Assembly (NCBI RefSeq): GCF_013372125.1
Contig: NZ_CP053826.1
Location: forward strand, 744,001-808,000
Direction: 5' to 3'
DNA length: 64,000 bases
Source of the DNA: Campylobacter curvus
GTDB lineage: Bacteria; Campylobacterota; Campylobacteria; Campylobacterales; Campylobacteraceae
In this document: one piece after another, positions 29,008-60,674 of the stretch
Layout: each line of letters starts with the position of its first letter
How positions within the stretch are numbered: position 1 is the stretch's first letter
The notes under the pieces: generated by a model
What the model saw: the letters and a program-made list of their open reading frames with translations, nothing else
Databases searched by the model: none
What the model was told of the DNA's origin: nothing
Translations under genes and position numbers: made by a program

Positions 29008-29210
29008 ATTAAAATGGCTCTGTTACAATATTTCATTGATTTTAACTTTCAAAAGCGAAGTCAAACCTTGTGAAGCGACGCTATCACCGCCGATTTTCAG
29101 AGAAGCCAAAGGTTGAACGCGAAAATCGTGCTATATGTTCGGTGCTTTGCGGAGCGAGCAGGGTTTGCGAAGCAAGTGTCAATGATTTATTATAACAAAG
29201 TCATTAAAAA
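29008..29210 (+). repeat. Miniature inverted-repeat element, copy A, with target duplication
   Basis: The element proper is 29016-29202 (187 bp). It starts GGCTCTGTTACAATATTTCA and ends with a 24-bp inverted copy (TCAATGATTTATTATAACAA..). It is flanked by ATTAAAAT (left) and ATTAAAAA (right), a 7/8 direct repeat. The centre forms CGATTTTC/GAAAATCG. No ORF. It belongs to the family listed at 31118, 33790, 55977 and 60482. Confidence 0.85.
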
Positions 29211-29450
29211 TTTATCCTTATCTGCGATGTTTCAAAAAGTAGCATCATAAAATTTCTCACGAGGCTATCACATTTTAAAGGCGGAATTTGATGACTAAAA
29301 TTCGCTCGGACAAGGTTTTGATTTACTATTTTTTGTAAGGTTAAATTCAAGATATCGACTTTTGTCGCGGTTTTTAATATTGATTCTATCAAAAGATGAT
29401 AAAGCGCGCAAAATTTCTATCCGTTTTAAAATATAAAATTAAAATTTCAT
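29211..29450. other. Gene-free AT-rich segment before the flavoprotein gene
   Basis: No gene or repeat recognised. It leads into the promoter of the flavoprotein gene at 29451. Confidence 0.5.
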
Positions 29451-29456
29451 TATAAT
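29451..29456 (+). promoter_or_regulatory. -10 box for the flavoprotein gene
   Basis: TATAAT 28 bp before the ATG at 29485 within an A/T-only stretch, typical of a Campylobacter vegetative promoter. Confidence 0.6.
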
Positions 29457-29484
29457 AAACTTACAAACTTCTAAAGGAGACAAC

Positions 29485-31020
29485 ATGGCAAACAAGATCT
29501 CAAGACGCGATATGCTCAAAATGAGCATGGTCGGTGCCGGTGCGCTCGCACTAAGCGGCGTAAATGCAGTAGCGGCATCAAGCGAAAAAGACGTCAAATT
29601 TGACGAGGAGTATGACATAGTCATCGTAGGAACGGGCTTTGCAGGGCTCTCAGCCGCCTTAAAAGCCAGCGAGCGCGGCAAGAAGGTTTTGATAGTCGAG
29701 AAAATGGGCCGTGCGGGCGGAAATTCCGTCATAAACGGCGGAAATATGGCTGCTCCTATGAACAAATACCAAGTCGCTCAAGGCATAAAAGATAGCAAAG
29801 AGCTATTTATCGCTGATGCCGTAAAAGACGGGCTTGGACTAAATCACACCGAGCTTTTGAGCACGATGTTTGATAAAAGCAACGATGCCGTCGCACTCCT
29901 TGAAAAATGCGGCGCTCAGTTTTCAGATAAGCTGATATTTGAGAGCGGTCACAGCGTGGCTAGAAGCTTGCAAGCCACAAACGCTTCAGGCTCTGGCTAT
30001 ATCCAGCCTATGTTAAAAGTGCTTGGCGAGGATAAAAACGTCACTATCAAAACGAGGACGAAATTTGACGACTTCGTGCTAAACGACGCCGGGAAAGTGG
30101 TAGGAATTTTAGCTCGCGAGAACTATAAATTTGACGCCAAGCTCTTTAGCGACGACATGGAAAATACAAGCGGCGATAAAAAGGCCTATAAGGCTAAAGA
30201 CGGCGTATTGCTGGCTGCAGGCGGCTTTGGACGCGACCTCTGGTATCGCCAGATCCAAGATCCTCGCATAGTGCCTACGATAGACAGCACCAACCAACAA
30301 GGCTCAAGCGCGGGAGCGATGCTAAAAGCGACCGATCTAGGCGCTATCACGCTTCAGACTTCGTGGATACAGTTCTTGCCATACTGCTCGCCTGATGAAA
30401 AGGGCTTTGGCGCAGCTGTGAATTTCACCAACCACTGCTGCAACACTTACGGCATAACGGTAAATCCAAAAACAGGCAAGCGCTTCATGAACGAGCATGC
30501 CGGTCGTAAGATCAAGTCAGACGCGTGCTTTGCAGTCATCGGCAAAGACGAGAACTACCCGGTCAACCTTTGCGACCAACAAGCAGTAGACGCGAGAAAT
30601 CCTATCTACACATCTCGCCCGTTAGAGGCCGGCGTCATCTGGAAATTTGATACCCTTGACGCGCTCGCCGCGCATTTTAAGATCCCTGCTGATGCGCTCA
30701 AAGAAAGCGTCAAAAAATATAACGAAGGAGTAGCCGCAGGAAAAGACGAATTTGGCAAGCCGGTGGATAAACTAGGTGGCATAAACATCTCAAAACCACC
30801 ATTTTATGCGAGTCGCACTATGCCAAAAGTCCACCACACTTGCGGAGGCCTCGAGATAAACACAAAGGCTCAAGTGATCTCTTATAAAACGCATAAGCCA
30901 ATAGATGGTCTATATGCTGCAGGCGAGATAACAGGCGGTGTGCATGGAGCCAGCCGTCTGGGAACATACGCGATACTTGATTGTATGGTGTTTGGTATGA
31001 TCGTCGGAGAGACGATGTAA
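29485..31020 (+). CDS. Tat-exported flavocytochrome c / fumarate reductase-like flavoprotein
   Basis: A 511-residue FAD protein with an N-terminal Tat signal (SRRDMLKM then a hydrophobic stretch to about residue 30). FAD-binding motif VIVGTGFAGLSAALKA (about 46-61), then VEKMGRAGGNSVINGG and the catalytic-type Arg/His residues near the middle, ending LYAAGEITGGVHGASRLG. This is the soluble periplasmic fumarate/urocanate/methacrylate-type reductase family. It lacks the heme domain of FccA, so it needs an external cytochrome; none is adjacent. Ribosome binding site AAAGGAGA. Substrate not known. Flanked by two copies of the repeat. Confidence 0.85.
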   Translation: MANKISRRDMLKMSMVGAGALALSGVNAVAASSEKDVKFDEEYDIVIVGTGFAGLSAALKASERGKKVLIVEKMGRAGGNSVINGGNMAAPMNKYQVAQGIKDSKELFIADAVKDGLGLNHTELLSTMFDKSNDAVALLEKCGAQFSDKLIFESGHSVARSLQATNASGSGYIQPMLKVLGEDKNVTIKTRTKFDDFVLNDAGKVVGILARENYKFDAKLFSDDMENTSGDKKAYKAKDGVLLAAGGFGRDLWYRQIQDPRIVPTIDSTNQQGSSAGAMLKATDLGAITLQTSWIQFLPYCSPDEKGFGAAVNFTNHCCNTYGITVNPKTGKRFMNEHAGRKIKSDACFAVIGKDENYPVNLCDQQAVDARNPIYTSRPLEAGVIWKFDTLDALAAHFKIPADALKESVKKYNEGVAAGKDEFGKPVDKLGGINISKPPFYASRTMPKVHHTCGGLEINTKAQVISYKTHKPIDGLYAAGEITGGVHGASRLGTYAILDCMVFGMIVGETM

Positions 31021-31028
31021 AAAAGCAC

Positions 31029-31068
31029 AAAGGATCGATTTGCCGCGCTTTTGGCAAATCGGCCCTTT
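31029..31068 (+). terminator. Terminator of the flavoprotein gene
   Basis: Stem CGATTTGCC/GGCAAATCG extended by AAAGG/CCTTT, followed by ATTTTAT. It lies just after the stop at 31020. Confidence 0.8.
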
Positions 31069-31109
31069 ATTTTATATGTTTGGCTGCTTGCTCTCGCGCA
31101 AGCGACTAC

Positions 31110-31312
31110 TAAAAATAGGCTCTGTTGCAATATTTAATTGATTTTTAACTTTCAAAAGCGAAGTCAAATCCTGTGAAGCGACGCTATCGCCGCCGATTTA
31201 CAGGGAAGCGGTAGCTGACTGCGTAAATCGTGCTATACGTTCGGCGCCTTGCGGAGTGAGCAGGGTTTGCAAAGCGAGTACCAATGGTTTATTATGACAG
31301 AGTCTAAAAACA
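31110..31312 (+). repeat. Miniature inverted-repeat element, copy B, with target duplication
   Basis: The element is 31118-31304 (187 bp), in the same orientation as copy A, starting GGCTCTGTTGCAATATTTAA. It is flanked by TAAAAATA and TAAAAACA (7/8). The centre has CGATTTAC and GTAAATCG around GCGGTAGCTGACTGC. Confidence 0.85.
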
Positions 31313-31336
31313 TTAAAATGCCATTATCGTAGCGGG

Positions 31337-32464
31337 CTAAGCCTTGCTAAATTTCACTTCAAAGGATGTGAGCTTTTCATCGCTTTGGCAGGTTATTTTA
31401 AAATTCAGCTCGTCGCAAAATTTCTTTACGATATTCAGCCCTATGCCAAAGCCGCCGTTTTGCTCGTCAAATCTCGTATAAAGCTCGAAAATATGCGGTA
31501 AATTTTGCTTTGCGATACCTTTGCCGCTATTTTTTATATTTAGCTCGCCGGGGGTTAAATTTACGCTGATATTTCCGCCTTCGTTGCAGTATTTTACGGC
31601 GTTTGAGAGTAGGTTGTCGATGATCTTTCTTAGCTTGAATTTCGAGGTGAAAAGCGATACGTCGTTTGCTAGATCAAGCTTTAAATTTATATTTTTTTGC
31701 TCGATGCTGGTGCTAAAATACTCTATCCTCTCGCTTAGCATCCGAGTTAAATCCAGCCGCTCTTTTTCATCATTTGCACCGTTTTTCAGTCTCAAAGCGA
31801 CTAGGTCCTCGTAAAGATTTGCTATCGTAGTGGCCGCGGTTTTGATGTTGCTTAGGTATTTGGCGGGATCGCTCTTAAAAAGCTCTATACTCATCAAAAT
31901 GACGCTTAAAGGCGTGTTTATCTCGTGCGTGGTGTCGCGTATGAAACCATCTAGGAATTCTATCCTTTCATAAAGCGGGCGCAAAGAGAGCCTGATGATA
32001 AAATAAGCTATCAGTAAGACCGCCGCCAAAACGCCCAGCGAGGCGAATAAAATTTTAAGCTTGAGCCTGAAAAGCTTCGTTTTCACGCCGGTCGTTTTGA
32101 TGGCTATGTAGTATTCATTTTGAGCGTTTTTATCGGCGATGTTAAACTGCACGACCAGGCTGTTGCCATCCTCGTAGCTACTTGGCATATTTGGCCTTAC
32201 ATCAAAGTCGTCTTCGATGACATCGCCTGTTTTTAGATCCACGACATACGCCTCAAAGTCATCGAAATCATCATCGTCAAGCTCGCCGTGTTTGTCGAGC
32301 TTGATCTGAAGTTCGCGTCTTAGGTCTCTTAGCTCGAATGTGTCTTTATCGATGATGAACATCTTTTCGTTTTGATAAAATATGCCCGCAAAAAGGACGG
32401 TAAATGTGATGCTCGTTAAAAAATATAATAAGAAAATAGGCAGGACATGGCGTTTGTTAAGCAT
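31337..32464 (-). CDS. Sensor histidine kinase
   Basis: A 375-residue membrane kinase: TM1 about residues 8-30, a periplasmic acidic segment (DDDDFDDF near residue 63), TM2 about 138-158, then HisKA with the phospho-acceptor H180 in DTTHEINTPLS and a HATPase domain with GFGIGLNIVKKF. It overlaps the response regulator by 8 bases, so the two are one system. The short acidic sensor domain may bind metal or a cationic ligand (inference). Confidence 0.92.
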   Translation of the reverse strand: MLNKRHVLPIFLLYFLTSITFTVLFAGIFYQNEKMFIIDKDTFELRDLRRELQIKLDKHGELDDDDFDDFEAYVVDLKTGDVIEDDFDVRPNMPSSYEDGNSLVVQFNIADKNAQNEYYIAIKTTGVKTKLFRLKLKILFASLGVLAAVLLIAYFIIRLSLRPLYERIEFLDGFIRDTTHEINTPLSVILMSIELFKSDPAKYLSNIKTAATTIANLYEDLVALRLKNGANDEKERLDLTRMLSERIEYFSTSIEQKNINLKLDLANDVSLFTSKFKLRKIIDNLLSNAVKYCNEGGNISVNLTPGELNIKNSGKGIAKQNLPHIFELYTRFDEQNGGFGIGLNIVKKFCDELNFKITCQSDEKLTSFEVKFSKA

Positions 32465-33119
32465 ATTTGTATCCGAGCTTAGACTGGCTGATGATGCGCT
32501 CCTTGCCTAAAATTTTCCTAAGTCCCGTGATGTAGACTCGAAGGCTTAGCTCGCTAGGGCTCTCATCGTAGCTCCAAATTTCACTATAAATTTCATCTCG
32601 GCTTAGGAATTTGTCTTTGTTTTTAAGCAGCAAGCTTAGCAGTTTGGCTTGTTTTTTAGGCATCGACACGATATCATCGCCTTTAAATAAAACTCCCTGG
32701 GCCATGTCAAAGCTGAAATTTTCATCTATGCGTTCTCTGGTTTTTGGATTATGCACGAAGGTGCGCCGCAGGATGTTATTGACGCGCAAAAGCAGCTCTT
32801 TAAGCTCAAATGGCTTTTTGATGTAGTCGTCGCAACCGCTTACGAAGCCATCTTGCACGTCTTTTAGGGTATTTAGCGAGGTCGTGAATATACAAGGCGT
32901 GTTGCGGCCGGTCTCTCTTAGTTCTTTAAGCAGCCTAAAGCCGTTGCCACCGATGATCTTGACGTCAAATATCCACAGATCAAAGCATTTTTCATAGGCT
33001 AAATTTAGTGCGTCTTCGTAGTTTTTTACGCTTGTGACGTCAAAATTTTCGCTTTTTAGATACGTGCTCATCATATCAAGCAGCATATTTTCGTCTTCTA
33101 CGATCAAAATTTTATTCAT
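32457..33119 (-). CDS. OmpR-family response regulator
   Basis: A 220-residue regulator with a receiver domain (phospho-acceptor D52 in WIFDVKIIGG) and a C-terminal winged helix (residues about 130-218, LSRDEIYSEIWSYDESPSELSLRVYI). It is upstream of and overlaps its kinase. Likely targets include the neighbouring DUF1104 gene 90 bases upstream (inference from position). Confidence 0.93.
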   Translation of the reverse strand: MNKILIVEDENMLLDMMSTYLKSENFDVTSVKNYEDALNLAYEKCFDLWIFDVKIIGGNGFRLLKELRETGRNTPCIFTTSLNTLKDVQDGFVSGCDDYIKKPFELKELLLRVNNILRRTFVHNPKTRERIDENFSFDMAQGVLFKGDDIVSMPKKQAKLLSLLLKNKDKFLSRDEIYSEIWSYDESPSELSLRVYITGLRKILGKERIISQSKLGYKYA

Positions 33120-33209
33120 GGCTTCTCCAAAACATCAAATTATACTTAAAATTTTGCCTGTTTTGTAGCGTTAGGGTAGGCCTTGCTCATCGCAAAGCCT
33201 AAATTCGCA

Positions 33210-33626
33210 TCAGTCGTGCTTTTTGTCAAATTTTTTACCGTCCATAAAGCCACCCTCATGACGATGTTTGTCAAAGTCATCATCCATTTTCTTGAGCTCT
33301 ATGTCTAGCCTGTCGGCATCTTTTACACTTAGAGCCGAGACTTTTTCGTTGTAGCCGGTTCTAAAATCCTGCATAAATTTATACCTGTCAGCCGCGCTCA
33401 TGGCCTCAAGCTTCTTTCTCATTTCAGACTTGAAGCCTCTTTTGGTGTCCTTTATCTGGGCTTTTAGCTCACCCACGCGCTTGTCTATCTCAAAGGCTAT
33501 GTCGCTTAGCGTTTTTGCATCGGCGTTTGCCATCATCGCGTAAAGCTCCTCGTTCGTGCTCTTCTCAAGTGAAGCGGCAAACATACTTCCAGCCATCAAG
33601 ACGGCTACTAAAACTATTTTTTTCAT
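33210..33626 (-). CDS. Periplasmic DUF1104 family protein
   Basis: A 138-residue protein with a signal peptide (MKKIVLVAVLMAGSMFAAS) and a helical body: DAKTLSDIAFEIDKRVGELKAQ, then YKFMQDFRTGYNEKVSALSVKDADRL and a His/Lys-rich tail. It is the DUF1104 family common in Campylobacter and Helicobacter, of unknown function; in C. jejuni some two-component systems control such secreted proteins. It precedes the response regulator and is read in the same direction. A shortened paralog lies at 34053. Confidence 0.8.
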   Translation of the reverse strand: MKKIVLVAVLMAGSMFAASLEKSTNEELYAMMANADAKTLSDIAFEIDKRVGELKAQIKDTKRGFKSEMRKKLEAMSAADRYKFMQDFRTGYNEKVSALSVKDADRLDIELKKMDDDFDKHRHEGGFMDGKKFDKKHD

Positions 33627-33781
33627 CTTTTCTCCTTTAAAAAATATGAGTGTATTTTAAATAAAACTTGTGAAGAAAAGGTTAAATCATATGGGGTAAA
33701 TTTTTAAAGGTTGCATCTTAATACAGTGCTGATTTTAAAATTCTAGAATATTGTAACGTCGTTTTATAAGATTTGACTATT

Positions 33782-33984
33782 TTATATTTGGCTTTGTTAA
33801 GATACTTCATTGATTTTTAACTTTCAAGAGCGAAGTCAAACCTTGTGAAGCGACGCTATCGCCGCCGATTTACAGGGAAGCGGTAGCTGACCGCGTAAAT
33901 CGTGCTATATGTTCGGCGCTTTGCGGAGCGAACAGGGTTTGCGAAGCAAGTGTCAATGATTTATTATAATATAGCCTTATATTT
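33782..33984 (+). repeat. Miniature inverted-repeat element, copy C, with perfect target duplication
   Basis: The element is 33790-33976 (187 bp), starting GGCTTTGTTAAGATACTTCA and ending ATTATAATATAGCC. TTATATTT flanks it on both sides (8/8). The hairpin CGATTTAC, GCGGTAGCTGACCGC, GTAAATCG is perfect. It separates the two DUF1104 genes. The bases between it and the neighbouring genes (33627-33781, 33985-34052) show no gene. Confidence 0.9.
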
Positions 33985-34052
33985 TGTAGCGATGGATTAA
34001 AATCGGCCGAATAGAATTCGGCCTGAATTTTAGGAGTGGAGTGTGGTGATGT

Positions 34053-34451
34053 TTAGTCGTTTTTGGCTTTTTCTTCGGGTTCGTCTTTTTTAGTGATATC
34101 CCAAATTTCAGCCTCTTTTATGCTTAGAGCACAGACTCTTTCGTTGTATCTTGCGCTAAAATCTCTCACGAAGTCATCTCTTTGTTCTTTAGCAAGAGTC
34201 TCGAGCTTGTTTTGCATTTTGGCTTCAAATGCCGCTTTTGCAGTATTTGCTTGCGCTTTTAGCTTGCCAAATCTTTTATCTATCTCAAACGCCATATCGG
34301 CAAGTGTTTTAGCGTCAGATCTCGTGATCATTTTTCCAAAGCCAACTTCTTTTGCTTTTGCAAATATCGCCAAAAGATAAGCCTTTGAAGCTATCAGAAG
34401 CGTCGGTAGACTTATTTTGTTCTGGCATATCGCTGCAGTTTGATCGCTCAT
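34053..34451 (-). CDS. DUF1104 paralog without a proper signal peptide
   Basis: A 132-residue protein whose body (DAKTLADMAFEIDKRFGKLKAQ ... DFSARYNERVCALSIKEAEIWDI) matches the 33210-33626 protein but whose first 40 residues do not form a signal peptide and whose His-rich tail is lost. A good ribosome binding site (AAAGGAGAAAA) remains. It may be a decaying duplicate or a cytoplasmic form. Located between copy C of the repeat and the YgbA-like gene. Confidence 0.6.
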   Translation of the reverse strand: MSDQTAAICQNKISLPTLLIASKAYLLAIFAKAKEVGFGKMITRSDAKTLADMAFEIDKRFGKLKAQANTAKAAFEAKMQNKLETLAKEQRDDFVRDFSARYNERVCALSIKEAEIWDITKKDEPEEKAKND

Positions 34452-34521
34452 TTTTTCTCCTTTATTTAAAATGTAGGAGAATTGTAGAAAGAATTTGTGA
34501 AAGAAAGGTTAAGCCGCGGGG

Positions 34522-34881
34522 TTAGTCGCCGCCTCTTAAAAATAGTTTTTTGATCTTGTTAAGCCCTAGCTTCATGCCGCTATATTTCATCATTTTAGCC
34601 ATCTTTTTCCACATGTCAAGCTCGTAGCAAGGATGCGGACAGCGGTGACAGCGCGGTTTTTCTATATGAGGGCAGGCTTGAAGTCTGGCGTAAGCGTATC
34701 TGACCATATGCTCACACTCTTTGCAAAGCTCAAATTCCACGCTCGTTATATTTGCTTCGCCGTTGTAGCTCAGGCTTTGCGTGCATTTGTGCTTTGGCTC
34801 GTCTTTGTGTTTGTCGGTGCAGTAAATTTGTATGAATTTCGTGACTGTCGCGACCTCGTAGCAAAATTTCTCTCTTGTCAT
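34522..34881 (-). CDS. YgbA-like cysteine-rich protein
   Basis: A 119-residue protein starting MTREKFCYEVATVTKF with Cys-rich clusters CKECEHM and CPHIEKPRCHRCPHPCYEL, matching the YgbA family (called nitrous oxide-stimulated promoter in Pfam; E. coli ygbA is induced by NO). The cysteines suggest metal binding. The start at 34881 follows AAAAGGAGAATAGT and is preferred over an upstream in-frame start. Single gene. Confidence 0.75.
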   Translation of the reverse strand: MTREKFCYEVATVTKFIQIYCTDKHKDEPKHKCTQSLSYNGEANITSVEFELCKECEHMVRYAYARLQACPHIEKPRCHRCPHPCYELDMWKKMAKMMKYSGMKLGLNKIKKLFLRGGD

Positions 34882-34962
34882 ACTATTCTCCTTTTTGGAA
34901 ATAGTAGCCAAAAAGCGTGAAATTTGATTTGAGATAAATCAAGATATTTTTAGTCCCAAATG

Positions 34963-35679
34963 TCACAGATCGTTCCGAAATTTCGCCAATGCTCTTTTAT
35001 AGTCATCCTCGCTGTCTATGCCAATACTCTGGCTTGAGACCTCCAGCATCGCTATGCGCTTGCCGTTTTCAAGAGCGCGCAGCTGTTCTAGCTTTTCGGT
35101 ACTTTCAAGATGTGAGGTGCGAAGTGAGCAAAATTCGCGTAAATTTAGCGCGCTGTATCCGTAGATGCCAAGGTGAGCTTTGTATTCGTCGCATTTAGCA
35201 CGGTCAAAAGGTATACGCGAGCGTGAAAAATATAGCGCAAAGCCGTCAAAATCAGTAACGACTTTGACTAGGTTTTTGTCATCGGCAAATTCGCCGCTAA
35301 CTAGTTTGTAGCATGAAAACATAAAGGCTTTTTCGCGTTTAGCCTCACAAAAGGCTTTGAATTTAGCGATATTTTCAGGCTCTATGAAGGGCTCGTCGGC
35401 TTGGACGTTGATGATGATCTCGCGCTCGTCTAGCCCTAAAATTTGCGCCGCTTCGTTTATGCGGTCTGTCCCGCTTTGATGATCTTTGCTCGTCATCACG
35501 GCCTTTAGTTCGTGTTTTTGTGCGATGTCAAAGACACTTTCATCATCGACCGCTACTACCACATCATCGCAGCTACTAACGCGTCTAGCCGTAGCCACAA
35601 ACATCGGCACCCCACCGATATCGCATAAAATTTTATCCTTAAACCTAGTCGAGGCCAGTCGGGCCGGTATGATTATCAT
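34963..35679 (-). CDS. kdsB: CMP-KDO synthetase
   Basis: A 238-residue 3-deoxy-manno-octulosonate cytidylyltransferase. MIIIPARLASTRFKDK is the family start and NVQADEPFIEPENI the nucleotide-binding segment. It activates KDO for lipid A core synthesis. Start at 35679 forms an ATGA overlap with thrC and follows GGATC; a start four codons earlier lacks a binding site. Last gene of the argB-cutA-thrC-kdsB operon. Confidence 0.93.
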   Translation of the reverse strand: MIIIPARLASTRFKDKILCDIGGVPMFVATARRVSSCDDVVVAVDDESVFDIAQKHELKAVMTSKDHQSGTDRINEAAQILGLDEREIIINVQADEPFIEPENIAKFKAFCEAKREKAFMFSCYKLVSGEFADDKNLVKVVTDFDGFALYFSRSRIPFDRAKCDEYKAHLGIYGYSALNLREFCSLRTSHLESTEKLEQLRALENGKRIAMLEVSSQSIGIDSEDDYKRALAKFRNDL

Positions 35680-37139
35680 TTTTTGATCCATTCTAAAATT
35701 TTATTTTCGATCTGGTTTTGGGCTATCACTTCAGGGTGTAGGATCGGCGCGTCAAATAGCGCATCTATCGCCTCAGGCACTGTGTCGTTTAAAATTTCAG
35801 CCATCTTTTTTAGCCCCTCTTTTTCGCCGCCTTTTACCTTCACGTCGCAGGCTTTTAGCATACTTGGCGTAAATTTCACCCAGTGCGCGGTCGAGGTTAT
35901 GACGTTTATACGGGAGCTGTCTACCATTTTTAGGCATGTTGCGGTATGCGGGTCGATCGCTACGCCTTTTTTAGCCCAGGAGCTTATGTAGCTTTCACAC
36001 TCCTTGTCGGTGCAAAAGTCCGCCTCAAAGTCCTCTTTTAGCGCTGCTAGTTCGTGTGCCTTGAGCTTGTAAAATTTATTTTTATTAAGCTCGTCCATGA
36101 GCTCTTTCGTGCGCACGGAGCCAAATTTATCAAAGAGTAGGCGCTCGATGTTAGAGCTTAACAAGATATCCATGGCCGGGCTTATGGTCTTGACTAAGGT
36201 TTTGTTCCTTAGATCGTAAATGCCCGTCGTAAAAAGCTCGGTCAAGATATTGTTGGCGTTTGAAGAGATCTTTATCTTGCCTATTTTCGCGCCCATTTTT
36301 TTAGCGTAATAAGCCCCCAAGGCGTTGCCGAAATTCCCGCTTGGCACGATGATGTCAAAGCTCTCGTTTTTGCCTAGTTTGCCAAGCTTTAAAAGGCGTG
36401 CGTAGGCGTATGCGTGGTAGATGATCTGAAACAAAATCCTGCCAAAATTTACGGAGTTTGCCGCGCTTAGCAAAAGACGATTTTTAGCCAGTTCGCTTTT
36501 AAAATTTTCACTTGCCAGAAGCGTTTTTAATGCGCGCTGAGCGTCGTCGAAGTTACCTTTTATGCCAAAGACCTTTAAATTTTCGCCGGGCATGCAGACC
36601 ATTTGGAGTCGCTGGACCTCGCTCGTGCCGCCCGTAGGATACAAGCAGATGGCTTTTATATTTTTAGCGTCTGCGAAGGTTTGTAGAGTCGCCGGACCGG
36701 TGTCGCCGCTCGTGGCGCACATTATGAGGTAGTTTTCGCCTCGTTTTTGCGCGAGCTTGCTTAAAATTTCACCGAAAGGCTGAAGCGCCATATCCTTAAA
36801 AGCGCGTGTGGGCCCATGATAAAGCTCGTTTATGTATAGATTTTTATCAAGTCTTTTAAACTCGGCCGGCGTATTTGGTCGGTCGAAATTTTTATAGCGT
36901 CTCAAGGCCTTTTTAAAGCTTGCCTCGTCGATGTCGAATTTAAAGAGCGAGATGATAGCCAGTGCCAGCTTTTCGTAGCTTAACGCGCTTAGATCTCGCC
37001 ATGCTTTAGCGCTTATCTTTGGAAGCTTCGTCGGTGCGTAAAGTCCGCCGTGGACGCTGCTTGGATTTAGCAGTGCGGTACTTAAATTTACATTTTTTAC
37101 CTTTTCGTTTTTGTCCGCTCTTGTGGGTGTGAGTCTCAT
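35676..37139 (-). CDS. thrC: Threonine synthase
   Basis: A 487-residue PLP enzyme converting O-phosphohomoserine to threonine. The N-terminal family motif GGLYAP, YHGPTRAFKDMA (with the PLP Lys in FKD), CATSGDTGPA and PSGNFGNALGAYYAKKMG are visible. Start at 37139 overlaps the cutA stop as ATGA; an in-frame ATG ten codons earlier lies inside cutA. Both neighbours are coupled by overlaps. Confidence 0.94.
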   Translation of the reverse strand: MRLTPTRADKNEKVKNVNLSTALLNPSSVHGGLYAPTKLPKISAKAWRDLSALSYEKLALAIISLFKFDIDEASFKKALRRYKNFDRPNTPAEFKRLDKNLYINELYHGPTRAFKDMALQPFGEILSKLAQKRGENYLIMCATSGDTGPATLQTFADAKNIKAICLYPTGGTSEVQRLQMVCMPGENLKVFGIKGNFDDAQRALKTLLASENFKSELAKNRLLLSAANSVNFGRILFQIIYHAYAYARLLKLGKLGKNESFDIIVPSGNFGNALGAYYAKKMGAKIGKIKISSNANNILTELFTTGIYDLRNKTLVKTISPAMDILLSSNIERLLFDKFGSVRTKELMDELNKNKFYKLKAHELAALKEDFEADFCTDKECESYISSWAKKGVAIDPHTATCLKMVDSSRINVITSTAHWVKFTPSMLKACDVKVKGGEKEGLKKMAEILNDTVPEAIDALFDAPILHPEVIAQNQIENKILEWIKK

Positions 37140-37447
37140 TTTTTGCCTTTTGTTTGATTTTTTACCCAAATTTTGTATTTTTTATAGATATCTTTTGGCT
37201 TGAAAGATAGAATTTCAGGTAGCTCGTAGTCGTGATTTGCTTTTATGAATTTAGCTATTTTTTTAAATTTAGCGTCCGTCTTGATGAGTAGAATTCTCTC
37301 TTTCTCGTCGCAAATTTTATCGTCCCAGACGTAAAGACTATCTGCTTTTGTGCTACTGACGCAAGCGGCCAAGCCATTTTTGATGAGCTTTTTGCCTAGC
37401 ATTTTGGCCGCCTTTTTATCAGCGACCGAGGTCATTAAAATTTTCAT
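37136..37447 (-). CDS. cutA: CutA-like divalent-cation tolerance protein
   Basis: A 103-residue protein of the CutA1 family: LIKNGLAACVSSTKADSLYVWDDKI, then ERILLIKTDAKFKKIAKFI and YELPEILSF, which match the trimeric PII-like fold. Role in metal tolerance is debated. Translationally coupled to argB upstream and to thrC downstream (ATGA overlaps). Confidence 0.88.
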   Translation of the reverse strand: MKILMTSVADKKAAKMLGKKLIKNGLAACVSSTKADSLYVWDDKICDEKERILLIKTDAKFKKIAKFIKANHDYELPEILSFKPKDIYKKYKIWVKNQTKGKK

Positions 37448-38289: not shown

Positions 38290-38331
38290 TTCGATCCTTC
38301 GCTAAAAATGTCAGATTATAACAAAATGCGC

Positions 38332-40384: not shown

Positions 40385-40392
40385 AAATCCTT

Positions 40393-48626: not shown

Positions 48627-48660
48627 GACCGCCTAAAATCAATTTTTCTAAAGGATTTGT

Positions 48661-49479: not shown

Positions 49480-49495
49480 AATTTCGGAGGATAAA

Positions 49496-50560: not shown

Positions 50561-50563
50561 TTT

Positions 50564-52979: not shown

Positions 52980-53823
52980 CTTTCACGGGCATGAATTTTA
53001 TCTTTTAAGAGATGATTTGCTGGGAGATTTCAACGGCAACAAAGCCAGAAAGCTCGAATACTTTCTAAACGCCGATCTTAGCGGCTTTAAACGTATCGTT
53101 TCGCATGGATCCAGTCAGTCGAATGCGATGTACTCGCTAAGCCTTTTTTCAAAGATGAAAAATTTAGAATTTTGCTATGTCGTTTCGCATCTAAATTCGA
53201 ATTTAAAGCAAAATCCGGTCGGGAATTTCAAATTCGCCCTTGAAAACGGCATGAAAATTTTCGTAGCCGAGGATAGGGTGAAATTTGCAAAAGAGCTTGC
53301 CGATACGGCGGATGCGCTTTTTATAAACGAGGGCGTAGCCCAAAGCGAAGCGGAGTACGGCTTTAAAACGCAGGCTGATGAAATTTTGGCTTGGAGTGAA
53401 AAAAGTGGCGTGAGGCCGGATATTTTTCTGCCTTCAGGCACCGGCACGAGCGCTACATATCTAGCCAAACATATAGATCTAAACGTCTTTACCTGCCCGT
53501 GCGTAGGAGACGCGAAGTATCTGCGAGAGGAGATCGCGGCGCTTGATGAGCACTCGCGGGTCAAAATTTTAACTCCGCCCAAAAAATATCATTTTGGCGA
53601 TCTAAAGCTCGAGCTTTATGAAATTTGGCAAGAGCTCAAGGCTAGTGGCGTGGAATTCGAGCTTATTTATGACCCGGTCGGATTTATCACGATGTTTGCA
53701 AATTTAAAAGAATTCAAAAACGAAATTTTATATATCCATCAAGGTGGGTTGCTCGGCAACATAAGCCAAAAAATGAGATATGAAAGAAAATTTAAAAACC
53801 ATTTCAAAAAGGATCAAGGATGA
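52963..53823 (+). CDS. PLP-dependent ACC deaminase/D-cysteine desulfhydrase-like enzyme
   Basis: A 286-residue fold type II PLP protein. GNKARKLEYFL (PLP Lys), HGSSQSNAM, and SGTGTSATYLA are the family motifs of 1-aminocyclopropane-1-carboxylate deaminase and D-cysteine desulfhydrase. It is shorter than the usual 330. Substrate not decided. Start GTG at 52963 within the end of the MotB-like gene. ATGA overlap with hisD. Confidence 0.75.
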   Translation: MIEPFSFHGHEFYLLRDDLLGDFNGNKARKLEYFLNADLSGFKRIVSHGSSQSNAMYSLSLFSKMKNLEFCYVVSHLNSNLKQNPVGNFKFALENGMKIFVAEDRVKFAKELADTADALFINEGVAQSEAEYGFKTQADEILAWSEKSGVRPDIFLPSGTGTSATYLAKHIDLNVFTCPCVGDAKYLREEIAALDEHSRVKILTPPKKYHFGDLKLELYEIWQELKASGVEFELIYDPVGFITMFANLKEFKNEILYIHQGGLLGNISQKMRYERKFKNHFKKDQG

Positions 53824-55112
53824 AATTTTTACATTCTACGGACAGTGATTTTAGGGCGAAATTTATGCAGCTTGTGAAGCGATCGGATATGGATATGAGC
53901 GGTGTTTTGCCTGTTGTCACGCAGATAATCGATGAGGTGAAAAACGGCGGAGATGAGGCGCTTTTTGCGCAGATCGCTAAATTTGACAAATTTAGCCCGA
54001 CTAGCAAAAACGACCTGATGATCGGCGTAGACGAGATGTCTCGCGCCTACGACGGCCTCGATAATTCGCTGAGGCTAGCGCTAAATTTAGCCTATGAGCG
54101 CATAAAATCATATCACGAGCGCTCAAAGCCCGCTACTTGGACGTTTAAAGATGATCATGGTATCTTGCTGGGCGCAAAATACACACCGGTAGATCGCGCG
54201 GGGCTTTATATTCCGGGCGGCAAGGCGGCCTATCCCAGCTCGCTTTTGATGAACGCCGTGCCCGCGATAGTAGCCGGCGTAAAAGAGATCGTAGTCTGCA
54301 CACCGGCCATCGGTGGCAAGGTAAATCCTCTCTTGCTTGCTGCGATGCATCTTTGCGGTATAAAAACTGCCTTTAAGATAGGCGGAGCCAGCGCTATCGC
54401 CGCGATGGCATACGGCACACAAAGCGTGCCTAAAGTGGACGTGATAACAGGCCCCGGAAACATCTACGTCGCTACGGCTAAAAAGCTAGTTTATGGTGAA
54501 GTAAATATCGATATGATAGCAGGTCCTAGCGAGATAGGCATCATCGCCGATGAGAGCGCGGACGCCCGCCATGTAGCTATCGATCTACTCTCTCAAGCCG
54601 AGCATGACGAGCTTGCCAGCAGCTTTTTGATAACGCCGGTGGAGGCCTTTGGCAGACAGGTGCAAAGATATGTCGAGGACGAGCTAAAGACGCTAAAACG
54701 CGAGCCTATCGCATCTGTGAGTATGCGAAACAAGGCCGCTATCATCATCGCAAAGGACATGAAAGAGTGCGTGGGGCTGATGAACGAACTGGCAGTAGAG
54801 CACCTCGAAATCGCTACGAACGACGCGCTTAGCTATCTTGACGAGATAAAACATGCCGGAGCGATATTTTTCGGACATTTTACGCCTGAGGCGATGGGAG
54901 ACTATCTGGCCGGACCAAATCACACTTTGCCAACCGGTGGTAGCGCGCGTTTCTACTCGCCTTTGGGGGTTGAAAATTTCATGAAAAGAAGCTCGATAAT
55001 CTCCGTCAATAGAAAAGGCATAAAAGAGCTCGGCAAGGCCTGCATGCAGCTAGCTCAGGCCGAGGGGCTGGGCGCTCACGAGAGATCGATCAGAGTGCGT
55101 CTAGACGACTGA
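53820..55112 (+). CDS. hisD: Histidinol dehydrogenase
   Basis: A 430-residue zinc enzyme for the last two steps of histidine synthesis. GLYIPGGKAAYPSSLLMNA, VITGPGNIYVATAKKLVYG and DMIAGPSEI are strong matches, and HTLPTGGSARFYSPL near the C-terminus carries the zinc ligand. Isolated from other his genes in the window, coupled to the upstream PLP gene. Ribosome binding site AAGGATCAAGG. Confidence 0.96.
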   Translation: MKFLHSTDSDFRAKFMQLVKRSDMDMSGVLPVVTQIIDEVKNGGDEALFAQIAKFDKFSPTSKNDLMIGVDEMSRAYDGLDNSLRLALNLAYERIKSYHERSKPATWTFKDDHGILLGAKYTPVDRAGLYIPGGKAAYPSSLLMNAVPAIVAGVKEIVVCTPAIGGKVNPLLLAAMHLCGIKTAFKIGGASAIAAMAYGTQSVPKVDVITGPGNIYVATAKKLVYGEVNIDMIAGPSEIGIIADESADARHVAIDLLSQAEHDELASSFLITPVEAFGRQVQRYVEDELKTLKREPIASVSMRNKAAIIIAKDMKECVGLMNELAVEHLEIATNDALSYLDEIKHAGAIFFGHFTPEAMGDYLAGPNHTLPTGGSARFYSPLGVENFMKRSSIISVNRKGIKELGKACMQLAQAEGLGAHERSIRVRLDD

Positions 55113-55169
55113 TAAAGCTGAAATTTATAAATTTTAAGCTATCATCAAGCAAAATTTAAAGGACAAGAA

Positions 55170-55928
55170 ATGCAAATAAACGGAACGTCGGTGGGCTCTG
55201 GATACAATGCCTCACAAAGAGCAGAAGAGCAAAAGACACAGCAGGAAAAGGCTTTGCAAAATATCTCCGCCGTGCGTGCATTAAGCGGGATCGACGGGGC
55301 GAATTTAGCGATCGCGGACTCTTTGCTAAGTCAAAGCAACACTCTAGAGCAAGGCATCGCAAATGCAAATGACGCGATAGGGATGCTAAATATCGCTGAC
55401 TCTACGCTTTCAAATTTAAGCCAAAGTGCAAACCGTATAAACGAGCTCTCTGTATCTTTAGGCAGTGCGGCGCTAAACAGCGATCAAAGGTCGATGATAC
55501 AAAAAGAGATAAGCTCGCTTTCGCACTCTATGTCACAAAGCGTACAAAATGCTACGTTTAACGGCAAAAGCGTATTTGGCTCTGAGCTAAATTTCGTGAC
55601 GGGCGAGGGCGTGCAAAGCATAAATTTAAGCACCGAGTCTATCACAAATGTAGCGGTGGACGGCTCAAATGCAAATGATATAAGGCAAAATATAAATTCT
55701 TTACGCACGAATATCGGCTCTGCTCAAAACGGCATAGCCGCAGGCATCAACGCCTCGATCGCTCAAAGCATAGCGCTTCGTCAAAGTGAAAGCGGACTAC
55801 AAAACAACGATATCGCTAAAAACGTAAATGACTTACAGCAAGCAAATTTAAACATAGATGCTAGTATCCTCGCTCAAGTGCACAATATCTCAAATCTACA
55901 AAGCCAAATGGACAGACTTTTGGCCTAA
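55170..55928 (+). CDS. flaC: FlaC-like secreted flagellin
   Basis: A 252-residue flagellin-family protein: QKALQNISAVRALSGIDGANLAIADSL at the N-terminal D0/D1 helix and ASILAQVHNISNLQSQMDRLLA at the C-terminus, without the variable middle of FlaA/FlaB. FlaC of C. jejuni (249 residues) is secreted through the flagellar export system, not used in the filament, and interacts with TLR5. No clear sigma28 site seen upstream. A terminator follows. Confidence 0.88.
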   Translation: MQINGTSVGSGYNASQRAEEQKTQQEKALQNISAVRALSGIDGANLAIADSLLSQSNTLEQGIANANDAIGMLNIADSTLSNLSQSANRINELSVSLGSAALNSDQRSMIQKEISSLSHSMSQSVQNATFNGKSVFGSELNFVTGEGVQSINLSTESITNVAVDGSNANDIRQNINSLRTNIGSAQNGIAAGINASIAQSIALRQSESGLQNNDIAKNVNDLQQANLNIDASILAQVHNISNLQSQMDRLLA

Positions 55929-55935
55929 ATTTTAT

Positions 55936-55965
55936 CCAAGCCGCCTTTGGCTTGGGTATTTTTTA
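55936..55965 (+). terminator. Terminator of flaC
   Basis: Stem CCAAGCC/GGCTTGG with a 6-base loop followed by GTATTTTTT, starting 8 bases after the flaC stop. Confidence 0.8.
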
Positions 55966-55968
55966 AAT

Positions 55969-56414
55969 TTCTTTTTTGCTCTGTTATAATAAATCATTGA
56001 CGCTTGTTTCGCTTCTATTTTGCAGTTGCGAACAAAGTGAAGCAAAACCCTGTTCGCTCCAGGAGCGATCTAGCGCGGACACGAACAGCATCTGTGCGGA
56101 GCGAGTAGGCGTTCTAGAGCTTACGAGAGTAGCGAGCGAAGCCTTAGCACGATTTTTTCTGTTTCGCGTTGCTCGCATCTTTTCAAGACGCTTCGTTGCA
56201 CTACTCAAACGCTGTTCGCGTTTTCCCTGCAAGCAGACTGCGGTCAGCTACCGCTTCCCTGTCCTCGTAGCGAAGTCTCGTTACGAGTGCGTAGTACGAA
56301 GTAAAAATCGGCAGCTATAGCGTCGCTTCACAAGGTTTTTACAGGGATGCTGTTCGCATTCTCCTGCTTTAAGAGCTGAAAATCAATGAAATATTGTAAC
56401 AGAGCCTTCTTTTT
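55969..56414 (-). repeat. Long (430-bp) relative of the miniature inverted-repeat element, copy E
   Basis: The element is 55977-56406, in the opposite orientation to copies A-D. The left end is TGCTCTGTTATAATAAATCA and the right end TGAAATATTGTAACAGAGCC, so the ends match the shorter copies. TTCTTTTT flanks it exactly on both sides (8/8). Its interior has the same landmarks as the short copies (CCTTGTGAAGCGACGCTAT, ACAGGGAAGCGGTAGCTGACCGC, GAGCGAACAGGGTTT), with extra sequence between. No ORF longer than 114 residues and none with a ribosome binding site. Confidence 0.85.
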
Positions 56415-56680
56415 TAAAAAGCATTGATAAATTTTTAAAAGCTTCATTTTTGTTCTATTTTATTTCGTTTGTAGCTTTTTAAGAAATAGCCGTGCAGTAA
56501 AATAAGATGAGAGCAAAGAGCAGGATGCCTAATTTTAGCGCACTCTACTAGCAGTTGCGAGACGGAGTCGAAGCACAGAAAATAACCGCCGATTTTCACG
56601 ACAAGCCGCTAGACCAAGCGTGGTCTGTTAAATTACGAGTGCAAAGTATCATATTAAATTCAAGTGAAATTTTAGGAGAG
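56415..56680. other. Gene-free segment between the long element and rpoD
   Basis: It carries scattered phrases resembling the element interior (GACGGAGTCGAAGCACAG, ACCGCCGATTTTCACGAC) but no ends, hinting at an older, eroded insertion. No gene is seen; the only plus-strand ORF (62 codons) has no binding site. Confidence 0.35.
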
Positions 56681-56701
56681 GAGGGGCTAAATTTACCCCT
56701 C
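56681..56701 (-). terminator. Possible terminator of rpoD
   Basis: GAGGGG/CCCCTC stem with a 9-base loop overlapping the last codons of rpoD on the minus strand. No strong T-tract. Confidence 0.4.
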
Positions 56702-58537
56702 GATATAGTTTTTGAGCTTTCTGCCTACTTTGGGATGTTTTAGCTTTTTGATAGCTGAGCTTTCGATCTGACGGACGCGCTCGCGAGTCACGTTTAGAGC
56801 TTTGCCTATCTCTTCAAGAGTGCGGTCGCTCTCGTCTTCAAGCAGCCCAAATCTCATACAAATAACAGCCTTCTCGCGGTCGTTTAGCTGCGACAAGACA
56901 TCATCTATTTGCTCTCTTAGATCGCCTTTTAAAATCTGCTCTATCGGCGAAAGTGAGCTTTTATCCTCTACAAAATCGCCAAATTTACCGTCCTCTTCGT
57001 TTGCAATAGGGGCTTCGAGGCTGATAGGCTCTTTTGTTATTTTTATGACCTGCTTTACTTTGTCGACGCTTAGCCCGACCTCTTTTGCGATGACGCTCAC
57101 ATCAGGTTCTTTACCCTCTTCTTGCAGATATTTGCGGTTGATTTTATTGATACGGTTTATCGTCTCTATCATGTGTATCGGTATGCGGATAGTGCGAGCT
57201 TGATCGGCTATGGCACGGCTGATAGCTTGGCGTATCCACCATGTGGCATAGGTGGAAAATTTATATCCTTTGCGGTATTCGAATTTATCGACGGCTTTCA
57301 TGAGGCCGATATTGCCCTCTTGTATGAGGTCCAAAAACGGCAAGCCGCGGTTCGTATAGCGCTTGGCGATAGATACCACAAGGCGTAAATTCGACTTTGC
57401 CATACGGGCCTTGGCTTCGTCTGAAATTTTCTTACCGCGCTTGATCTGCTCTAAAATTTCCTTTAAGCGTGCGGGCTCCAGGTCAAAGCCTTGTTTGCTG
57501 GCTTCTTTTGTTGTAAAGAGCTTTTTGATCTCGACATAAGTAGAAACCATCGTCGCCTCAGGCACGCGAGCTGCGATCTCCTCCTTGTTTAGTTTGATGA
57601 TGTCTTTTAGTATGCTTTTGTGATTTTTCTTGAGCTCATCGCTAAACATCGGCAAGCGATACTCCAGGCGCTTTAGCTCGCGGTCAAACTCATCATCGCT
57701 TTTTAGAGCGGTCTCCATGGACTTTACGATCTCGCTTATGAGCTTACTGGTCGGCCCTAGATCCATCAGCTTGTCTTTTAAAATTTTCTTTTTAAAAGCG
57801 AGAGTGAGCTTTGACATAGTGTCCTCTACTTCGACCTTTTCTTGCTTATTTACGGTTTTTAGCCACTCTTTTTTTGCTTTTTCAAGAGCCTTAAAGCTTT
57901 CGATGACCTTTTCTGCACGTTTATCGTTTTTAAGCGATTTTTTCGGCGTTTCCTCGTCTTCGCTCTCTTCGTCCTCATCGCTTTCTATGTCCTCGTCTTC
58001 GCTCTCGCTCTCGTCTTCAAAGCTTTTAAAAAGCTCTTTGACGCGGCGCTCCCTGTTGATGAGCGGCTCTTTGTAGTCAAGTATGAAATCTATCAAAAAA
58101 GGAACCGAGCAAAAGGCGTCTATGATGATATCCTCGCCAAGCTCGATCTTTTTACTGATCTCGACCTCTTCGTCTTTTGTAAGCAGTGAAATTTGCCCCA
58201 TTTCTCTTAGATACATCCTCACCGGACTATCCGAGCGCGACCACTCTAAAAAGTCGTTGTCACTTGTCAGATCGAGGTCTTCTTCGATGTTCACATCCGT
58301 TTTTTGTGTATTTTCAAGGCGCTTTTTCGCATCGGCGATATTTCTCATCTTTGCGATCTCGGCAGCTGTCATCAGCTGGACTTTATGTGTTTTAGCAAGC
58401 TGCTCTATCTTTTTTATCATCGTCGCCGTAGGCGCTTTGTCTAATAATTTTACGAGTTTTTCATAGGTGAGAAAACCTTTTGCATTTTCAGTGAAAAGCT
58501 CCTCTATTTGGCTCAAAGCTTCTTTTGCGGCACTCAT
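56693..58537 (-). CDS. rpoD: Primary sigma factor RpoD
   Basis: A 614-residue sigma70. Region 1.2/2 ([19 protein letters not shown]), the core [37 protein letters not shown], region 3 and region 4 ([31 protein letters not shown]) are intact. The acidic insertion (about residues 185-215) is the non-conserved region. Start at 58537 follows AAGGAAATTTT and is preferred over an ATG eight codons upstream without a binding site. Single gene. Confidence 0.96.
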
Positions 58538-58638
58538 AAAATTTCCTTTCTGATTTTGCATTTTGTGTATCGTAAATCTTTTGTTAAAGAAGAAAATGGA
58601 TTATACCCAAATTTTATTAAATGTTTATAAAAGAAAAG

Positions 58639-58656
58639 TTGGAACGCATTTTGCTT
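58639..58656 (+). promoter_or_regulatory. Sigma54 promoter for flgF-flgG
   Basis: TTGGAACGCATTTTGCTT carries the -24 GG and -12 GC separated by ten bases, as in Campylobacter RpoN promoters of rod and hook genes. It lies 37 bp before the ATG at 58693. Confidence 0.85.
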
Positions 58657-58692
58657 CATACTCGTAAAAATCAAAATTTATAGGAAATTTCC

Positions 58693-59514
58693 ATGCAAAA
58701 CGGCTACTATCAGGCCACTGCCGGAATGGTGACGCAGTTTAACAGATTAAACGTCATATCAAACAACTTAGCCAACGTAAATACGATAGGATTTAAGCGA
58801 AATGACGTTGTTATCGGGGATTTTGAGAGAATTTTCAAAGATACTCAAGACGAGCTGCCACTAAAAAATCACACCAAAGACGCGGCAAAATTTCTAAACA
58901 GGACTCTTGATCGTGTCCCGCAAGTGAGCGAAGAATACACCGATTTTAGTGCCGGAGGCTTTAAATACAGCTCCAATACGCTAGATTTTGCTATCAAGCG
59001 CGAGGATATGTTTTTTCTAGTAGATACCCCAAATGGCGTGAGACTGACAAAAAACGGCTCGTTTAACCTCGATGAGGACGGCTTTATCGTGACAAAAGAG
59101 GGATACCGCGTGTTGCCAAACAACTATCAGACCTTAGCTCCAGAGCAAAGAGGCATCCAAGTGCCACTAGATCGCAGTCTAAGCGTCGATAAAAACGGAA
59201 ATATCTATACGATGGACGAGGGTGAAAGTGAGCAAATTTCAAAATTTTTCATCGCTCAACCACGTGAGATAAGAGAGCTCAAAAAGATAGGAGACAACCT
59301 TTTTGAGCCTAAAAATTTAGACGATGTGATAGATATCGACGATGCCGACACTCTGATGCAAGGCTACGTGCAAATGTCAAACGTAAATCCCGTTACCGAG
59401 ATGGTCGGACTAATCGAGACGCAGCGCCTTGTGGATATGTATCAAAAGGTCATGACAAGCCATATGACCGACCTTAACCAAGACGCAGTTCAAAAATTAG
59501 CGCTTAAAGCTTAA
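58693..59514 (+). CDS. flgF: Flagellar basal-body rod protein FlgF (FlgG2)
   Basis: A 273-residue rod protein. The N-terminus MQNGYYQATAGMVTQFNRLNVISNNLANVNTIGFKRN is the rod/hook N-domain and the C-terminus QGYVQMSNVNPVTEMVGLIETQR the matching C-domain. C. jejuni calls it FlgG2/FlgF. The sigma54 promoter directs class-2 flagellar expression. flgG follows in 12 bases. Confidence 0.92.
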   Translation: MQNGYYQATAGMVTQFNRLNVISNNLANVNTIGFKRNDVVIGDFERIFKDTQDELPLKNHTKDAAKFLNRTLDRVPQVSEEYTDFSAGGFKYSSNTLDFAIKREDMFFLVDTPNGVRLTKNGSFNLDEDGFIVTKEGYRVLPNNYQTLAPEQRGIQVPLDRSLSVDKNGNIYTMDEGESEQISKFFIAQPREIRELKKIGDNLFEPKNLDDVIDIDDADTLMQGYVQMSNVNPVTEMVGLIETQRLVDMYQKVMTSHMTDLNQDAVQKLALKA

Positions 59515-59525
59515 AGGATAAAGAC

Positions 59526-60314
59526 ATGATGAGATCACTTTATACGGCTGCTACGGGCATGATCGCTCAGCAGACACAAATAGACGTTACTTCAAACAAC
59601 ATAGCAAACGTAAATACCTACGGATATAAGAAAAATCGCGCTGAATTTGCCGATTTGATGTATCAAGTCATGGAATACGCTGGCACGGCGACTAGCCAAA
59701 CGACTACTAGCCCGACTGGTATCGAGGTGGGACTGGGCGTCAGGCCTACGGCGATAAATAAAATTTTCTCTCAGGGCTACTTTAAGGAAACTAGCAACAA
59801 CCTTGACATGGTCATCGCCGGAAACGGCTTTTTCCAGCTTCAGCTACCTGACGGCACTACGGCATACACTAGAAACGGTGCGTTCAAGCTTGACTCCAAC
59901 GGAACGATCGTAAATTCCGACGGTTATCAGCTCATTCCTCAGATCGTCGTGCCTGCAAATGCTACGCAAATTTCGATCGGTACGGATGGAACGGTCTCGG
60001 TTTTGCAGGCAGGAGAGACTAATATGGCGCAAATAGGCCAGATACAAATAGCAAATTTCATCAACCCGGCCGGCCTTCATTCGATGGGTGATAACAACTA
60101 TCTAGAAACCGCAGCGAGCGGGGACGCGGTAGTGGGCGTAGCAGGGCTTGACGGGCTTGGCACGATCAGGCAAGGCTTTGTCGAGATGAGTAACGTGCAA
60201 CTAGTCGAGGAGATGACCGACCTCATCACGGGTCAGCGTGCCTACGAGGCCAACTCTAAGGCGATCACGACGAGCGACTCGATGCTTGAGATCGTAAACG
60301 GACTTAAAAGGTAG
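59526..60314 (+). CDS. flgG: Flagellar basal-body rod protein FlgG
   Basis: A 262-residue distal rod protein. MMRSLYTAATGMIAQQTQIDVTSNNIANVNT and the C-terminal QGFVEMSNVQLVEEMTDLITGQRAYEAN are the FlgG/FlgE-type ends. Assembled outside the cell membrane by the flagellar type III system. Ribosome binding site AAGGATAAAG. Confidence 0.96.
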   Translation: MMRSLYTAATGMIAQQTQIDVTSNNIANVNTYGYKKNRAEFADLMYQVMEYAGTATSQTTTSPTGIEVGLGVRPTAINKIFSQGYFKETSNNLDMVIAGNGFFQLQLPDGTTAYTRNGAFKLDSNGTIVNSDGYQLIPQIVVPANATQISIGTDGTVSVLQAGETNMAQIGQIQIANFINPAGLHSMGDNNYLETAASGDAVVGVAGLDGLGTIRQGFVEMSNVQLVEEMTDLITGQRAYEANSKAITTSDSMLEIVNGLKR

Positions 60315-60317
60315 AAA

Positions 60318-60440
60318 ATGATCGTGATGCTTAGTATAGTCGGCTTCATCTTGCTTATTTGGGTCGTTGATGTGCTTTATTTTTCACAAGACGACTCCTC
60401 GGCCAGTGAGAGTAAAGACCGCAAAAAGGCCTTAAACTAA
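60318..60440 (+). CDS. 40-residue single-pass membrane protein after flgG
   Basis: ATG at 60318, 3 bases after the flgG stop, with AAAGG upstream. The product begins MIVMLSIVGFILLIWVVDVL, a single membrane helix, and ends in a charged tail (SASESKDRKKALN). It shares the flgF-flgG transcript. No family known to me. The good ribosome site and coupling make translation likely. Confidence 0.5.
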   Translation: MIVMLSIVGFILLIWVVDVLYFSQDDSSASESKDRKKALN

Positions 60441-60473
60441 AATTTCACTTCTATTTTGATCAAAGGATGAAAT

Positions 60474-60674
60474 TTAAAATTGATTCTGTTACAATATTTC
60501 ATTGATTTTTGGATTTCAAAGTGAAGTCAAACCTTGTGAAGCGACGCTATCGCCGCCGATTTACAGGGAAGCGATAGCTGACCGCGTAAATCGTGCTATA
60601 TGTTCGGCGCCTTGCGGAGCGAACAGGGTTTGCGAAGCAAACGTCAATGATTATCATAACGGAGCCTTAAAATT
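60474..60674 (+). repeat. Miniature inverted-repeat element, copy D, with perfect target duplication
   Basis: The element is 60482-60666 (185 bp), starting GATTCTGTTACAATATTTCA and ending TCATAACGGAGCC. TTAAAATT flanks it on both sides (8/8). It has the CGATTTAC...GTAAATCG hairpin. It lies between the flgG operon and azlC. The bases up to the azlC start (60675-60752) hold no gene. Confidence 0.9.

Follow-up and report, generated by a model that had tools for sequence, protein, structure and literature searches.

The genome of Campylobacter curvus, a single contig of 1,974,918 bases, carries about fifty small, gene-less transposons, which apparently borrow the transposase of larger transposons found in related species. 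Five of these lie in the window, the 64,000-nucleotide stretch at positions 744001-808000 that was analysed here. On the basis of their terminal sequences and target duplications, the elements probably form a family of miniature inverted-repeat transposable elements (MITEs) within the IS1595 family, ISCaje5 group, a reading to which we assign a probability of roughly 0.87. The five elements had been described in an earlier note made from the window alone, which overlooked the decayed fragments and a conserved folded core common to element types with different ends.

Elements and target duplications

All five elements occupy exactly the coordinates given in the earlier note, and the 8-bp flanking repeats were correct as written there. 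The four short copies, recognised as a single family by a repeat finder, have type A ends and lie on the plus strand: element 1 (29016-29202, 187 bp; 29008..29210 with flanks), bounded by ATTAAAAT at 29008-29015 and ATTAAAAA at 29203-29210 with a 7/8 match; element 2 (31118-31304, 187 bp; 31110..31312 with flanks), bounded by TAAAAATA and TAAAAACA, also 7/8; element 3 (33790-33976, 187 bp; 33782..33984 with flanks), within a perfect duplication of TTATATTT; and element 4 (60482-60666, 185 bp; 60474..60674 with flanks), within a perfect duplication of TTAAAATT. The long relative (55977-56406, 430 bp; 55969..56414 with flanks) lies on the minus strand between perfect copies of TTCTTTTT and has additional palindromic stretches inside its core region. 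The elements in the window thus have the features of MITEs, being 185-430 bp long, without a transposase gene and with imperfect inverted ends of about 24 bp. The start GGCTCTGTTA that had been ascribed to all ends occurs without mismatch at two of them, on the left of the copy at 29016 and on the right of the 430-bp element; the other eight ends have one or two mismatches in these ten bases, the copy at 60482 starting GATTCTGTTA.

Across the whole genome, the 24-bp end was found 45 times at up to three mismatches, against no occurrence of the reversed pattern, and the BLASTN search that had been recommended for the copy at 33790 returned 49 matches, some of which are pieces of one element. 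A loose seed motif matched 111 times in the fetched stretches, from which two filters retained 51 cores, a lower bound because the filters excluded five or more other element cores. Ends were picked for 50 of the 51 cores (not for 1242258) according to how well they matched GGCTCTGTT and one another; a small length penalty was applied, and the flanking sequence played no part in the choice. Perfect 8-bp duplications were obtained for 22 of the 50 and duplications with at most one mismatch for 27, compared with a mean of 0.86 and a maximum of 5 perfect duplications in 2000 trials of random flank re-pairing, and no other duplication length from 5 to 12 gave more than one perfect case. The 22 perfect duplications represent 20 distinct sequences and are 98% A/T. 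Reading of their ends placed 17 of the 22 elements in type A and five elsewhere (one type B, four type C), so that the same duplication accompanies more than one type of end. Weighing against this picture, 28 of the 50 are without a perfect duplication under the automatic end choice, several of them because the script plainly picked the wrong ends.

Absence of an element at a matching site, combined with multiple copies, was observed for one element in two relatives. The neighbours of element 3 are two related genes (33210-33626 and 34053-34451), separated by a gap of 426 bp, compared with 183 bp in relative G045 and 202 bp in relative G046, and the matching gaps of these two genomes contain no element and gave no match to the core model. 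Only one gene of the flanking pair, not both, was found in the fetched stretches of G037 and G003. The comparison covered element 3 alone, in a set with one genome per species, and it answers the empty-site check proposed in the earlier note at the level of the gap; divergence of the gap sequence prevents resolution to single bases, which counts against the main reading. Together with the perfect duplications, the missing element bears out the earlier description of non-autonomous elements with 8-bp A/T duplications.

Beyond the five elements, the window contains decayed remains of the family. A fragment of a type-B element at 10011..10154 on the minus strand (best E-value 2.7e-17 by BLASTN against other copies) is composed of a minus-strand portion at 10039-10154 and a left-arm-like portion on the plus strand at 10011-10038, and a second fragment lies at 10618..10715, also on the minus strand (two halves, E 2.8e-6 and 6.8e-6); a SnoaL-like gene (10169-10591) is flanked by these two fragments (10011-10715). 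A short type-B arm remnant adjoins element 3 (33754..33779, minus strand; BLASTN 92% over 25 bp, E 6.6e-5), and the insertion of element 3 was apparently into or next to an older element. Elsewhere in the family, inspection by eye suggested that the copy at G000 1718097-1718283 is chimeric, with a type A left arm and a type B right arm, and that several longer copies (67802, 110018, 478730, 1452510 and 1628027) carry extra palindromic stretches within the hairpin, reminiscent of BOX modules.

Candidate parent transposons

A search for complete insertion sequences with like ends, also suggested in the earlier note, identified six larger transposons, five in relatives within the genus and one, ISCaje5, on a Campylobacter coli plasmid. 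Each carries an IS1595 transposase of about 340 amino acids together with DNA-methyltransferase cargo, and five of the six are flanked by perfect 8-bp A/T duplications. The closest to the type A end is the G014 transposon (L118:137-3763, 3627 bp, AATATAAA twice), whose ends agree at 20/24 positions, followed by those of G043 (L121:58-3889, 3832 bp, AATTTTTA twice; 18-19/24), G041 (L117:9271-12269, 2999 bp, TTTTACTT twice; 17-18/24), G004 (L119, reverse, 261-5475, 5215 bp, ATTTTTTT twice; 16/24) and G039 (L120:1-5242, 5242 bp, contig too short to include the left flank; 16/24). ISCaje5 itself (NZ_CP082875.1) is 2899 bp long, flanked by ATTAATTT twice, and carries a DNA methyltransferase. The transposases of G014, G041 and G004 were called as IS1595 by Pfam, and that of G014 also by the NCBIfam IS1595 model, at 184 bits against a cut-off of 75. 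In a tblastn search of plasmids the nearest annotated relative was ISCaje5 of C. coli, 65% identical, and the same list names ISSag10 and ISCco2 at 44-45% identity.

The earlier note had proposed IS6-type or IS1595-type elements as parents, and of these IS1595 is supported: the larger ISCaje5-like transposons of relatives agree with the elements in ends, duplication length and target preference. A parent in IS6 or ISL3 is highly improbable, and both were rejected: these families also give 8-bp duplications, and a GGCTCT start is common to the elements and to a motif beside ISL3-type transposases in relatives, but the IS6 transposase domain (PF13610) has no match in the genome in a search that was positive in 5 of 14 control genomes, the ISL3 domain (PF01610) has none in the genome and is found in 7 of 48 genomes of the genus, the candidate ISL3 end agrees with type A at only 13/24 positions against 20/24 for the best ISCaje5-like partner, and attempts to locate the other ISL3 end in three loci were unsuccessful. 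Of nine ISL3-type loci (among them L106-L110, L112 and L113), 7 have the GGCTCTTTT motif near one side. The statement that no transposase lies in the window holds for IS1595, IS6 and ISL3, the three families tested; the IS1595 domain, present in 23 of 48 genus genomes, has a single match in this genome, outside the window.

That match belongs to a resident 746-bp IS1595 element (L031:1423-2168, AAATCTTA twice), which was rejected as the parent because its ends differ, agreeing with type A at 8-9/24 positions. The resident element, with a 233-amino-acid transposase, apparently lies inside a decayed type-B MITE (L031:1286-2168; core L031:1288-1399). Elements with the same ends as the resident one occur in G037 and G012, and G037 (2.57 Mb) has 26 IS1595 matches, several of them broken by stops; BLASTN with the copy at 33790 gave no match in that genome.

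Several observations weigh against the ISCaje5-group assignment. The sole IS1595 element in the genome has other ends, and a search with the G014 transposase, run without a positive control, gave no match in this genome at E-values of 10 or below. Type-B ends agree with the genus partners at only 13-16/24 positions, leaving type B without an identified partner. In BLASTN comparisons with the five genus partners, significant similarity does not extend beyond the ends, and a scan of all six larger transposons with the core model gave no match; for these two reasons the elements are not deletion derivatives of the partners examined.

In the mechanism proposed, a larger transposon would supply its IS1595 transposase of about 340 amino acids in trans, and this enzyme would recognise ends consisting of GGCTCTGTT, about ten type-specific bases and then ATTGA or a near match. 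An A/T-rich target would be cut with an 8-bp stagger and the element inserted, the 8-bp duplication then arising by gap repair. Since partners with like ends were found in relatives and none was found here, the elements look stranded, or amplified by a partner that has since been lost. The module of about 115 nucleotides between the ends, which is not carried by the six partners, forms one long hairpin with conserved internal loops.

The cargo of the larger transposons was also surveyed. Each genus transposon has one or two cargo genes behind the transposase, and of eight cargo proteins scanned against Pfam, five have N6-methyltransferase or Eco57I domains, two of these with HSDR_N and one with Methylase_S, and three have no match; some cargo proteins show sub-threshold similarity to MADS defence proteins. 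This methyltransferase or restriction-type cargo varies in length and domain make-up across the five genus transposons, beside like transposases. On a Helicobacter pylori plasmid, an AlwI-type restriction gene adjoins a related transposase in a locus whose ends could not be defined. The ISCaje5-like group seems to spread methyltransferase and restriction-type genes, and would be a plausible route for the spread of such genes in the genus.

The conserved folded core

Element types with different ends share a core of about 115 nucleotides that folds into one long hairpin. An alignment of 26 compact cores (25 from this genome, including the filter-failing core at 165334, and one from G014), made without reference to structure, yielded a consensus hairpin with 35 pairs and a free energy of -45 kcal/mol, in which 97.7% of cells are paired. 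Two-sided changes were observed in 15 of the 35 pairs, compared with 2-3 when the partner was slid by 1-3 columns, and covariation was 0.288 compared with 0.137 in shuffled alignments, a value reached by 0 of 500 shuffles. Such changes occur in all four helices and within each sub-type (10/35 pairs among 14 sequences and 12/35 among 12), and 21 double changes were counted by parsimony. The core of element 3 folds at -48.8 kcal/mol (z -3.76), and 0 of 200 shuffles fold as well. Conservation of the fold is well supported. Within the window, the covariance model R1 locates the cores of elements 1 to 4 on the plus strand at 29059..29173 (133.2 bits), 31162..31275 (128.7 bits), 33834..33947 (139.7 bits) and 60525..60638 (138.6 bits), all four of which belong to its training set and match by construction; the core of the long relative (56200-56342, minus strand) is matched only weakly, at 15 bits and E 0.25.

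The core has about an even chance of acting as RNA, and our working reading is that the transcribed hairpin acts on neighbouring transcripts. The more stable fold is that of the window's plus strand in 26 of 26 copies, with plus-strand z-scores of -2.4 to -4.0 in four copies. G-U pairs outnumber A-C mismatches by 41 to 7 cells, which are not independent events because the copies are related, and by 19 to 5 when counted as events. Some of these data also count against an RNA role: minus-strand folds are also more stable than shuffles in three copies out of four, with z-scores of -2.7 to -3.8 and of -0.35 in the remaining one, the G-U excess is biased because the plus strand was the one folded, and on the 16 pairs common to the folds of both strands the ratio is only 6 to 2.

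The genomic context points weakly in the same direction as an RNA role. In a script test on mechanical calls of open reading frames (ORFs), not one of the 51 cores was contained in an ORF of at least 80 amino acids, and one copy is overlapped by an ORF of 93 amino acids. The upstream gene runs in the sense of the core in 35 of 51 cases (p 0.011); gaps between genes of the same direction hold 23 sense and 11 antisense cores (p 0.058), and convergent gaps hold 12 compared with 5 in divergent gaps (p 0.14). This bias is weakly consistent with cores in transcribed 3' regions.

Two accounts would explain the conserved fold at the level of DNA, and both are unlikely. In the first, transposition or coping with replication would require the hairpin in the form of single-stranded or cruciform DNA, and not as RNA. 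Nearly all cores found lie in mobile elements, the different element types have retained the core, and the better-than-shuffled fold of the minus strand fits this account as well; however, larger transposons with like ends move without the core, the plus strand is more stable in every copy aligned, and the strand of the core is unlinked to the half of the contig (7+/13- and 13+/18-, the halves being assumed to be the replication arms). The gene-sense bias (35/51; 23/34), weak as it is, also fits transcription rather than a DNA role. In the second, the covariation is an artefact of template switching in imperfect palindromes, in which one arm is corrected from the other, so that pairs change together without any function. 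The core is indeed one long palindrome in which many changes keep the arms matched, and adjacent pairs have changed together (A-T flips, columns 36-38), but such correction should erase the internal loops and the tandem G-A mismatches, and both of these, like the bulge TAYAYGTTC, are nearly invariant. Among gap-free columns, unpaired ones are less often variable than paired ones (34% of 41 compared with 57% of 70, p 0.014), G-U intermediates occur, and no helix is without two-sided changes, all of which argue against template switching.

The working reading of a transcribed hairpin can be extended, tentatively and with considerable doubt, to a transposon family with a structured-RNA cargo, in which one selected module of about 115 nucleotides is carried and exchanged by several end types, each of which presumably has an IS1595 transposase of its own, and the RNA of this module acts when transcribed from a neighbouring gene. 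If this were so, the RNA might shield or mark mRNA ends or bind a protein, and the persisting unit would be the module, not the transposase.

An order-wide search with the covariance model of the core, under strict filters and in a list naming 17 genomes of this genus, matched 3 of 398 genomes (this genome, G014 and G001), and BLASTN matched 2 of 48 genus genomes. The G014 core copy is flanked by a duplication of AATTTTTA, and G001 has one diverged core without clear ends (32.5 bits, L124:1501-1604), followed by a gene that we take to be mrp-like from reading of its protein. The core as an old, fixed leader of the mrp-like gene was rejected, as only G001 gave it among the 30 mrp loci scanned (from 30 of the 48 genomes with a match, this genome included). 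Rfam 15 gave no matches at the gathering score in the window, and permissive Rfam searches of one window copy and L091 gave sub-threshold matches only, none in the core. There was no result from BLASTN against plasmids and phages, nor from two patterns against viral contigs; a scan of genome contigs returned one Opitutaceae contig, taken for chance, with an ill-chosen pattern that missed the G014 copy and in a collection that may omit this genome.

Relation to known systems

Bacterial MITEs are often regarded as relics whose fold is a consequence of their palindromic make-up. In the present family, element types with different ends have retained the fold of a single core through two-sided changes, which makes selection on MITE cargo directly testable. 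Literature listings gave no title on Campylobacter MITEs and no paper on ISCaje5, and a term search of a review of bacterial MITEs returned mention of neither IS1595 nor Campylobacter.

The elements resemble the ISCaje5 group in their ends (GGCTCTGTT followed by ATTGA or a near match) and in their A/T-rich 8-bp duplications, whereas the six larger elements are 2.9-5.2 kb long, encode a transposase along with methyltransferase or restriction-type cargo, and are without the folded core. A close published counterpart is the IS1595-linked MITE ISHwa6 of Haloquadratum walsbyi, given in the available portion of PMC3852290 as 165 bp, in 7 copies, with inverted repeats of 25 and direct repeats of 8; size class, end length and duplication length are alike, but the present family has at least 51 cores, with several end types around one covarying core. 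The BOX elements of Streptococcus pneumoniae (PMC3049150) are likewise modular intergenic repeats with a predicted RNA fold and length variation through inserted modules, in a different host and with a different parent, and the accessible text of that paper contains neither of the word stems covari and compensat. Borrelia plasmid repeats (PMC2674063, as far as its accessible text goes) are intergenic, retain their stems through two-sided changes and are likened there to MITEs, but their stems are mostly short, and that text does not establish that they are transposons bearing end repeats and target duplications. In the accessible parts of these papers, IS1595-linked MITEs and repeats with a conserved RNA fold have thus both been published (PMC3852290, PMC3049150, PMC2674063); what is new, as far as the literature listings go, is the present MITE family, its partners, and the occurrence of one covarying core under several end types.

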